Shown: positions 56,701 to 59,700 of the stretch, piece after piece
How positions within the stretch are numbered: position 1 is the first letter of the stretch
Layout: every line of letters starts with the position of its first letter
Notes under the pieces: model-generated
What the model was told of the DNA's origin: nothing
The model's input: only the letters and a program-made list of their open reading frames with translations
Database searches by the model: none
Assembly (NCBI RefSeq): GCF_016907715.1
Contig: NZ_JAFBCM010000001.1
Span: 5,394,001 to 5,458,000 of the forward strand
DNA from: Tenggerimyces flavus
GTDB taxonomy: Bacteria; Actinomycetota; Actinomycetes; Propionibacteriales; Actinopolymorphaceae
Length of the DNA: 64,000 nucleotides
Direction: 5' to 3'
Made by a program: the position numbers and the translations under genes

Positions 56701-59700
56701 TGAGCGTGAGGTCGTCCGACACCAGCGCCTGTGCGTCCGGGGACTTGGCGACCTGTGCCTCGAACAGGCCGGGCACGGTCGTCGGCTCGACCGGCAGCGC
56801 GGTGGCGTTCCACTCGACGAGCAGGCGGTGGCGTTCCTCGTCGCCGAGAACGTCGATCGCGCCGATCTGTTGCGTTGGGTTCTTGGCGACGGCGTGCAGA
56901 ATCCGCTGCAGGCGTTGGGCGAACCCCTCCGCTGTGGTGTCGTCGAACAGGTCGGCGGCGTACTCGAGCACGCCGTGGACGGCGTCGCCGACCTCGACGA
57001 AGTCGAACGACAGGTCGAACTTCGCGGTCTTCGCGCCGAGCGGTACCGGCCGCGCCTCGACGCCGGGGAACGCGAGGCTGCCGTCGGCGCCGGCGACGTA
57101 CACGACCATGGTCTGGAACAGCGGATGCCGCGCAAGCGAGCGGGCGGGGTTGAGGACCTCGACGAGCCGTTCGAACGGGACGTCCTGGTGGTCGAACGCG
57201 GCGAGGTCGGTGTCGCGGACTCTCGCGAGCAGGTCGGCGAACGTGGGGTCACCGGAGGTGTCAGTGCGGAGGACGAGGGTGTTGAGAAAGAAGCCGACCA
57301 GGTCCTCCAGCGCCTCGTCGCCGCGGCCGGCGATCGGGCTGCCGAGGGGGAGGTCGGTGCCGGCGCCGAGCCTGGTGAGGAGGACGGCGACGGCGGCCTG
57401 GACGAGCATGAACATGCTGACGTCGTGGGCCTTCGCGACCTCGCGCAGGCGCTGCGCGAGGTCGGCGTCGAGGGACAGATCGACGGAGCTGCCACGGTAG
57501 CTGGCCTCGAGCGGTCGGGGCCGGTCGTACGGGAGGCTCAGCTCCTCGGGCAGGTTGGCGAGTTGCTGCTTCCAGTAGGCGAGTTGGCGCGCGGCGAGGC
57601 TGGCTTCGTCGTTCTCGTCGCCGAGCAGGTCGCGCGACCAGAGCGTGTAGTCGGCGTATTGGACCGGGAGCGGTGCCCACTCCGGCGCGGTGCCTTCGAG
57701 GCGGGCTTGGTAGGCGATGGCGAGGTCGGTGGTGAGAGGACGTTCGGACCACTCGTCGCCGGCGATGTGGTGGAGCAGGAGGAGGACGACGTGGTCGTTC
57801 GGTGCCAGCTCGAAGACGGTCAGGCGGAGCGGTGCTTCCCGGTCGAGCGCGAAGCCGTGGCTGGCTGCTTCCGCAAGCAGGGCTGGGAGTTCGTCTTCGT
57901 TCGCCTGGACGACGTCGGTGTGGAGCTGTACGTCGTCGATGAGCTGCTGGTAGGGCTCGCCGTCGTGGTCGGGAACGATCGTGCGCAGTGCCTCATGCCG
58001 TTGCGCGAGGTCGTGCACGGCTGCTTCGAGCGCTTGGACGTCGAGCCGGCCGGTGAGGCGCCAGGCGAGCGGGATGTTGTAGGTGGGTGAGGGGCCCTCG
58101 ACCTGGTAGAGCACCCACATCCGTCGCTGCGCGGCGGACAGCGGCATCGGGTCGGGTCGTTCGTGGGGGGTGAGCGCCGGTCGCGACGTCCCTTCGGTCA
58201 ACCGACCCACGAGCTGCGCGACTGTGGGCGAGTCGAAGACGTCGCGCAGCGACAGCTCCACCCCGAACGCACCGCGCACCCGACTGACCAGCCGCATCGC
58301 GAGGAGTGAGTGCCCACCCGCGGCGAAGAAGTCGTCGTCGATGGAGACGCTCGGCAGCCCGAGCACCCCAGCGACGATCCCGCACAGCACCTCTTCGCGC
58401 TGCGTCCGCGGCGCGCGCCCGGAGGTGGAGATGGCAGGGTCGGGCAATGCCTTCCGATCGAGCTTCCCGCTCGGAGTAAGAGGCAGCGCCTCCAGCTCGA
58501 TGACCGCCGACGGCACCATGCCGGCCGGCAGCTCCCGCGCCAATGCGGCCAGCACCCCCGCCACCGCACTCCCCGGCATTGGGTCGGGGGCACCCACGTC
58601 CGAACCTATGGGACCAGGGTGCCCCTCACCCAACACCTCGCCCGCCGCCGCAGTCCCCGGCATTGGGTCGGGGGCACCCACGTCCGAACCTATGGGACCA
58701 GGGTGCCCCCCACCCAGGACGACGTAGGCGATGAGGGCATCGCCTCGAACAGCGGCGGCGGCCTGGGCGACGCCGGGGTGGCGGGTCAACGCCGCTTCGA
58801 TCTCGCCCAGCTCGATCCGTACCCCTCGCACCTTGACCTGGTCGTCGACGCGGCCGAGGTACTCCAGCACGCCGGCGCGACTCCAGCGGGCGAGGTCGCC
58901 GGTGCGGTACATGCGCTGGCCGGGCGTGAACGGGTTCGCGACGAAGCGCTCCGCCGTCAACCCAGGTCGGGCGAGGTAGCCGCGGGCGAGTTGGTCGCCG
59001 GCGAGGTACAGCTCCCCCGCCACCCCGGGCGGCACCGGCCGGAGCGCGGCGTCGAGGACGTACACCTGCGTGTTCCAGACCGGCCTACCGATCGGGACCG
59101 CGTGGCCGCCCGCCTCGACCGGCCACGCGGTGACGTCCACGGCCGCCTCGGTGGGCCCGTACAGGTTGTGCAGCTCCGCCGGCAGCGGGAACGTCGAGAC
59201 CAGATCGCCAGGCAACGCCTCGCCACTGCAGATCACTCTCCGCAGGCCGACGCAGTCCACCGCGGCAGGCTCGTCCAGGAACACCCGCAGCATCGACGGA
59301 ACGAAGTGCACCGTGCTGACCCGTTCGCGCTGGATCAGCTCGGCGAGGTACCGCGGGTCCCGATGCCCATCCGGCTTGGCGATCACCAACGTCGCGCCGA
59401 CGAGCAGCGGCCAGAAGAACTCCCACACCGACACGTCGAAGCTCGACGGCGTCTTCTGCAGCACGCGTTCGCCAGGCTCCAGTCCGTACGCGGACTGCAT
59501 CCACAGCAGCCGGTTGACGATGCCGGCGTGCGTGTTCACGACGCCCTTCGGCTTGCCGGTCGAGCCAGACGTGTAGATCACGTACGCGGGACTCGACGGA
59601 GCGAGATCCTCAACGCAGTAAGGCTCCCCGTCGTCGGCGAGGTCCACGTCAGCCAACGCCAGGACACACGCGGGTCGGGCGTCGTCGAGCATGAACGCGA

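Follow-up and report, generated by a model that had tools for sequence, protein, structure and literature searches.

R3, a dispersed palindrome of Tenggerimyces flavus, is in our judgement probably a species-restricted, non-autonomous REPIN-like element that was inserted into the A8–A9 linker of an NRPS adenylation (A) domain and was then duplicated in place. The window is the whole stretch of DNA analysed, 64,000 nucleotides of contig NZ_JAFBCM010000001.1 (positions 5,394,001 to 5,458,000). Direct support for this reading comes from the copy number of R3, its absence from the relatives searched, its structure, its placement at gene 3′ ends, its presence and absence among homologues, the open reading frame and the origin of the tandem.

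The proposed course of events is as follows. R3 would be a 53-bp inverted doublet whose long single hairpin has AACCTAT as its conserved loop. It would have spread over the genome, with copies retained chiefly a short way past stop codons. One copy would then have entered the A8–A9 linker of an A domain, the frame staying open with an added length that is a multiple of three. Later tandem duplication in place, involving R3 and 31 bp of host flank, would have produced 84-bp units, and the resulting glycine/proline-rich disordered loop may have been accepted by a linker known to tolerate insertions.

The tandem repeat within the NRPS

The NRPS possesses five A domains, with A8 and A9 motifs present in all five. 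In the fourth domain (A4), the core motifs are labelled A8, A9 and A10. The features of this region are given below.

53762..64000, minus strand, continuing past the window end to genome position 5465815: NRPS gene, 18,054 bp, 6,017 aa, five A8 motifs
58439..59890, minus strand: A4, the fourth A domain of the NRPS and carrier of the insert
58511..58531, minus strand: A9 core motif of A4, LPAGMVP, from sequence
58580..58632, plus strand (frame read on the minus strand): R3 unit 1, 53 bp including the terminal T and A, translated as 15 residues
58633..58663, plus strand: 31-bp inter-unit spacer, a copy of the host sequence 58549-58579 lying 5′ of unit 1
58664..58716, plus strand: R3 unit 2, in A4
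61684..62992, minus strand: part of A3 (also in this NRPS) that runs from A8 to A9, the two motifs being 421 aa apart
58796..58855, minus strand: A8 core motif of A4, 20 residues, from sequence, naming as in the available part of PMC11355689

The two 84-bp units occupy 58549-58632 and 58633-58716 (TRF: 58557-58716, period 84, 96% matches), and each holds one 51-bp R3 (58581-58631 and 58665-58715). An earlier note on this DNA, in which the domain numbered A4 in the full-length NRPS was called A2, had described the units as near-identical to an intergenic R3 at 5257-5307. Direct comparison bears this out with identities of 49/51 and 48/51 bases, i.e., 2 and 3 differences. The frame was also correctly said to be kept over both units, as the minus-strand ORF runs through them uninterrupted and encodes the 18-residue peptide twice. 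The placement in a loop just before A10 has to be corrected, the actual site lying between A8 (58796-58855) and A9 (58511-58531). A8, A9 and A10, including its lysine, are retained in A4, and the NRPS presumably still works with the insert. A2, the second A domain, lies beyond the window and carries three further in-frame R3 units, also at 84-bp spacing. On our own reading of the sequence, the A8–A9 linker of A3, the same linker as that of the A4 insert, is occupied by a putative methyltransferase domain.

Homologues of the A domain were taken as the best 80 of at least 581 related stretches, one of the scan patterns being derived from the insert peptide itself; they are mostly from actinomycetes. 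The earlier note had held that its reading would fall if close orthologues carried the same peptide with unrelated DNA; neither HPGPIG nor GAPDP was found in the matched frame of any of these 80. The A8–A9 linker measures 44-73 aa (median 55) in 54 of the 80 homologues, the other 26 being unparsable for length. Within the NRPS itself, it comprises 93 aa in A4, 127 in A2, 51 in A1 and 47 in A5. An AlphaFold2 model of A4, built with 29 homologues, has a mean pLDDT of 86.1. Residues 396-436 of the model fall below a pLDDT of 50 and show no secondary structure, and they are flanked by a strand (385-392) and a helix (442-453). As modelled, the R3-derived insert is probably a disordered glycine/proline-rich loop.

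The R3 and R1 families

When up to 3 mismatches to its 28-nt core are allowed, R3 has 107 matches in the 8.52-Mb genome, 61 on the plus strand and 46 on the minus strand. With 0 matches for the reversed pattern in the same genome, a chance origin is excluded. The earlier note had taken R3 for a dispersed, mainly intergenic palindrome and had proposed a genome-wide search, its reading being at stake should R3 occur nowhere else. The element proved abundant, with 107 copies, and of its 83 arrays 78 failed to qualify as genic. The 83 arrays contain 102 recovered copies, or 104 after further retrieval. Five of the 107 lie outside the array count; two of them were later recovered and are non-genic, and one at ~5594911 was seen and is unclassified. 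Two or three copies are present in 15 arrays, with uniform orientation in each. The copies are almost identical from T-GGGT to ACCC-A, and conservation drops sharply beyond these ends (52-53 bp, 102 aligned copies). Neither a GTAG nor a CGTC tetranucleotide is present at the ends.

Among eight genomes of the family, R3 is present in its own genome alone, with 0 copies in the 7 relatives, which all belong to other genera. A superfamily core, GGGCACC-N8-AACCTAT-NGNA-N4-GGTGCCC with up to 2 mismatches, is found at 234 places in the genome, and a sample of 195 other genomes of the order contains none. Exact-pattern scans found no R3 in viral contigs or in a genome contig collection, from which the genome itself is possibly absent. 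Distant blastn against plasmids and phages returned no R3, and no Rfam family fell on R3 at gathering thresholds.

A sister family, R1 (ATGAAGGGCACCTTCAT..AACCTAT..ATGAAGGTGCCCTTCAT), occurs at 132 places in the genome. The copies of both families in the window, apart from the NRPS units, are the following.

5256..5308, plus strand: intergenic R3 copy, -41.5 kcal/mol, z -5.8
5158..5212, plus strand: intergenic R1 copy, of the sister palindrome family
42526..42580, minus strand: second R1 copy of the window

R1 and R3 can be aligned without gaps across a 37-nt core. Stem pairing was assessed in 117 R1 and 104 R3 copies from 580 kb of DNA, with G-U pairs counted. In R3, 17 of 21 stem positions are paired in at least 95% of copies, the exceptions being 51%, 77%, 74% and 38%. 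In R1, set in the R3 frame of 21 positions, 18 reach this level, with exceptions of 82%, 69% and 74%. Six positions have different base pairs in the two families and two more differ partly, while the AACCTAT loop and GGGCACC/GGTGCCC are unchanged; at one of the six swapped positions the R3 partner pairs in just half of the copies. Since the stems pair with different bases around the same loop, the two families share a hairpin rather than an arm sequence.

As RNA, the three R3 copies of the window fold at -37 to -42 kcal/mol (z -4.5 to -5.8). The hairpin of unit 1 reaches -37.3 kcal/mol (z -4.5) and that of unit 2 -39.2 kcal/mol (z -5.2), with 0 of 200 shuffles equalling it in either case. There is no U-tract after the hairpin in the R3 consensus; the stem is followed by approximately AAACC, and the other strand has no T-run.

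Origin of the tandem

The last 20 bp 5′ of units 1 and 2 in A4 are 90% identical, compared with a mean of 36% and a 95th percentile of 65% for random pairs of R3 flanks. As the 5′ flanks are this similar, a single R3 was present initially and was later duplicated together with 31 bp of adjoining host sequence. The A4 tandem is thus best read, from its sequence, as a local duplication in place rather than as two insertions. Across 14 arrays submitted to the flank test, one besides A4 exceeded 65% (7845035, 70%), and A2 gave 55%, which is within background. Several arrays, such as 5062002, 6353926 and 7579904, have spacers that are related among themselves, so local duplication is not general to all arrays.

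A2 and A4 are 65% identical in amino acids and 72% in nucleotides, whereas identity to A1 and A3 is 44-49% (amino acids); this comparison covered four domains, A5 being omitted for its differing end motif. The R3 cores are close to the pattern, with 0 and 0 mismatches in A4 and 1, 1 and 3 in A2. Because the cores are near consensus while the domains are 72% identical, the inserts would be younger than the domain duplication, or else homogenised.

This raises the possibility of gene conversion between A2 and A4, whereby a single ancestral R3 insertion into the NRPS would account for both and A4 would have received no fresh insertion. We regard it as a serious contender, though one with somewhat less than an even chance. 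The two domains are mutually closest among the four compared, and their R3 arrays are equidistant from A9 and have similar spacers. With units near consensus and domains differing at 28% of their bases, the inserts seem to postdate the duplication of the domains, and a site common to A2 and A4 fits conversion better than two insertions. Set against this are the bases of the units themselves, AC..CCAGGG in A4 and TC..CCGGGG in two of the three A2 units, together with six additional residues upstream in A2 and the 20-bp 5′ flanks of A2, whose similarity lies within background.

R3 copies in other genes

Five of the 83 R3 arrays were accepted as genic (8 full copies; five places in four genes). 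Besides NRPS A2 and A4, they lie in the following genes (genome coordinates).

5501056-5502537 (L052:1357-2838): DUF222 gene, Pfam DUF222
8376625-8377797: alanine racemase gene (alr), both Pfam racemase domains above cut-off
6869272-6871095: glycosyltransferase-like gene, Pfam match below cut-off

Insert-free counterparts are clear for alr and for the DUF222 gene. The alr orthologue of a family relative (70% identical) lacks exactly 17 residues, a net difference of 51 nt; the best match to this alr in the family is one relative, at 73%. A second alr at 2739677-2740777, 46% identical and without R3, exists in the genome, so the R3-bearing gene is not the sole alr. Two DUF222 paralogues of the same genome (75-76% identical in nucleotides) are without the insert as well. 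The DUF222 insert consists of two units of exactly 87 bp that are circularly permuted, with both ends in the R3 loop. It is flanked on either side by a 16-bp direct repeat. This can be no more than a possible target duplication, with one instance to go by and a different linker in the paralogues. The C-terminus of this gene, which has no Pfam match, was read by us as a putative HNH. For the glycosyltransferase-like gene, the orthologues (4 aligned of 7) align poorly at the R3 site, so an empty site is unproven there.

Two R3 and three R1 copies flagged as genic by the gene caller were rejected, and no R1 copy was accepted. The R1 copy in an aldehyde dehydrogenase gene was set aside as it appears to precede the likely true start. 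The ORFs around R1 or R3 at 3709045, 4329187, 4329301 and 6149005 are short and low-scoring, and were considered spurious.

Mobility and nested palindromes

Copies probably move by transposition-like insertion, through a putative enzyme acting in trans. A search for the RAYT/Y1 transposase (PF01797, E ≤ 0.001) gave 0 matches in the genome, with 5 of 14 control genomes positive. Target site duplication at single copies is at the level of the null, with means of 1.77 vs 1.93 for R3 (n = 53) and 2.53 vs 2.42 for R1 (n = 92). The earlier claim that R3 moves or copies itself stands insofar as R3 is abundant and is absent from the alr orthologue and the DUF222 paralogues; movement is deduced from this presence and absence, neither transposition nor an enzyme having been seen.

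An exact and narrow pattern for R3 arms in another context (the arm without its following NNG, a pattern that misses half-elements) gave 0 matches. A looser scan of the retrieved DNA did detect half-elements, which led to a nested core. An inner near-palindrome (TGTGGGGTTCTGGTCGCGACACGC...) is present in 39 distinct copies. Twelve of these stand free (the variant is AGCG in 11 and ACCG in the other one), and the remaining 27 sit in a core of ~117 bp. This core lies between R1 halves in 14 cases, R3 halves in 5 and halves of R9, a third palindrome family with arms GAGGGCGTCCC, in 4; two cores are between mixed families and two are one-sided. Where both halves belong to R1 or both to R3, the core resides within the loop, between ..AACCT and TAT.., with small variants. 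Nested palindromes were seen in the genome (G000) at loci L006, L012, L014, L042, L066, L112, L120, L148, L330 and others. At L007 and L030, the nested elements are chimeric, with halves from different palindrome families, as if exchanged by recombination.

The arrangement of the nested loops would fit a process that targets hairpin loops, with internal deletion of a longer ancestor as the alternative. It is tentatively suggested that a mobile system recognises hairpin loops, although we would sooner bet against this than for it. Palindromes would insert into the loops of palindromes, short R3-array circles opened at the loop would insert elsewhere, as in the DUF222 case, and a small share would enter genes in frame. 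The enzyme would then be other than a Y1 HUH.

Placement relative to genes

Genes were called with our own crude codon model. On these calls, 202 of 221 elements are located in gaps of at least 70 bp. Such gaps are occupied in 133 of 245 cases, an overall figure that is inflated as the stretches were selected for holding elements. This selection has no obvious effect on how the gap types compare, their occupancies being 46/58 for convergent, 68/122 for tandem and 19/65 for divergent gaps. R1 and R3 cluster within 30 bp past stop codons: 73 of the 160 gene 3′ ends that face an element have it within this distance (placement null mean 30.2, maximum 44 in 1000 runs). The corresponding figure for gene 5′ ends is 11 of 106 (null mean 15.0).

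Intergenic mosaics of R1, R3, R2 (a GTGATCATGTACGTGATCATGAAG palindrome) and other palindromes extend up to ~450-600 bp. They are seen in the window at 5153-5411, 15784-15922 and 21668-21754, and at loci L129-L137. Among the matches listed, mosaics that are otherwise alike differ in whether R3 stands between R1 and R2; at least 150 matches span such junctions, many of them being tandem arrays rather than empty sites. Cargo genes were sought between neighbouring R1 pairs less than 1.5 kb apart, and a gene was called in 2 of 76 pairs. For the 16 longer R1 pairs, the intervening stretch is mostly more palindromic mosaic among the matches listed. An FMN riboswitch (RF00050) lies elsewhere in the window, at 37807-37954 on the minus strand (86.1 bits).

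The conservation at gene 3′ ends could reflect selection for terminators instead of spread. R1 and R3 would then be immobile hairpins at transcription ends, kept by selection and copied by ordinary recombination, and the genic copies would be rare accidents. Such an account agrees with the position of the elements in convergent gaps and immediately past stop codons, and with the strength of the RNA hairpins. It is nonetheless unlikely in our estimation, as the consensus has no U-tract after the hairpin and the 102 copies are near-identical and sharp-edged, with none in the genomes searched, 7 from the family and 195 from the order. It also sits poorly with the presence and absence of R3 in genes and, among the matches listed, in mosaics.

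Role of the inserted peptide

In-gene R3 copies are presumably tolerated by-products of an element that spreads, not adaptations. The five gene places all read the arms as G-x-G-x-P...GAP-x-P, which is not significant given that about four of the six frames are open on a rough count. The inserted peptide might instead be useful, tuning the A domain or docking a partner, with selection for the tandem. Two domains of one enzyme do carry it, in two and three units, and the same site hosts functional methyltransferase insertions in the cases described in the available part of PMC11355689. Such usefulness seems very improbable when the loop is predicted to be disordered, much the same peptide occurs in unrelated proteins, and the DNA identity to intergenic copies suggests youth rather than selection on the peptide. 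Repeats of this kind are open to misassembly, but an assembly artefact or pseudogene, for which no other support was found, can hardly be entertained with the genome in a single contig, the 6,017-aa frame open, A8 and A9 kept throughout its five A domains, and the analogous alr insert backed by an orthologue alignment.

One genome displays the likely steps from a noncoding repeat to protein: over 100 copies that are mainly intergenic, a single in-frame insert (alr), tandem growth (NRPS) and insert-free homologues. Translated palindromes are thereby extended to an actinobacterial megasynthetase, at a linker used by natural and engineered insertions. For finding the enzyme that mobilises such palindromes in the absence of a RAYT, the nested loops offer a concrete clue.

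Comparison with known repeat systems

REPINs are inverted REP doublets that form hairpins; the available part of PMC3116915 describes ~100 doublets in one family (101 GI), in extragenic positions. R3 resembles them as an inverted doublet giving one hairpin and in its high, mostly extragenic copy number (107 R3, 132 R1). Compensatory stem changes, tandem units that repeat the flank and several groups per genome are further shared traits in the same portion of that work. The two differ in that no RAYT (PF01797) was found for R3 and in that its loop is conserved, the REPIN spacer being less so. Unlike REPINs as described there, R3 also has rare in-frame genic copies and a palindrome nested in its loop. 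The R1/R3/R2 mosaics resemble BIMEs.

REPs within the ORFs of many species have already been published (PMC3733652). As far as the accessible text of that study goes, the GTAG/CGTC REPs are, like R3, mainly located in convergent or unidirectional gaps near gene ends (<20 bp in convergent gaps), with some genic. Their genic inserts encode 20-30 aa, or 43-82 aa in clusters, and the enzyme that moves CGTC REPs when a RAYT is absent is described as an open question. The ends of R3 carry neither tag. No mention of actinobacteria or of six actinobacterial genera is found in the accessible text.

In the sections available of PMC10969869 and PMC3767692, Rickettsia palindromic elements (RPEs) are, like R3, translated in frame in unrelated genes, and they sit at solvent-exposed places. 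Compared by description, RPEs are ~100-150 bp long with several families frequent in ORFs, and R3 is 53 bp with 78 of 83 arrays not genic. The earlier note had named Rickettsia as a known setting of translated palindromes and held an actinobacterial NRPS case to be undescribed. The first part needs qualifying, since they are not peculiar to Rickettsia (PMC3733652); the second stands within the partial literature covered, where no actinobacterial or NRPS case was found.

IS1397-type IS elements, as presented in the part of PMC1525189 at hand, share with the nested cores the use of a palindrome as a specific insertion target. Unlike IS1397, the nested insert is a palindromic core of ~117 bp, too short for a transposase, and lies in the loop. 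The target site duplication expected of a MITE was not found at single R3 and R1 copies. The A8–A9 linker is the commonest site of methyltransferase interruptions in A domains, in the available part of PMC11355689, where the methyltransferase lies between a8 and a9; the same linker is filled in A4. Those interrupted domains carry an enzyme domain, whereas A4 carries a 53-bp palindrome and its duplicate.

R3 is not filed as a member of the REPINs or REPs, because the tests for a RAYT and for a tetranucleotide tag fail. In its workings it is analogous to a REPIN and, where it lies within genes, to RPEs or intragenic REPs. New here are the R3 family, which none of the relatives searched possesses, its insertion into an NRPS and a racemase that have homologues lacking the insert, and the nesting of palindromes in loops.
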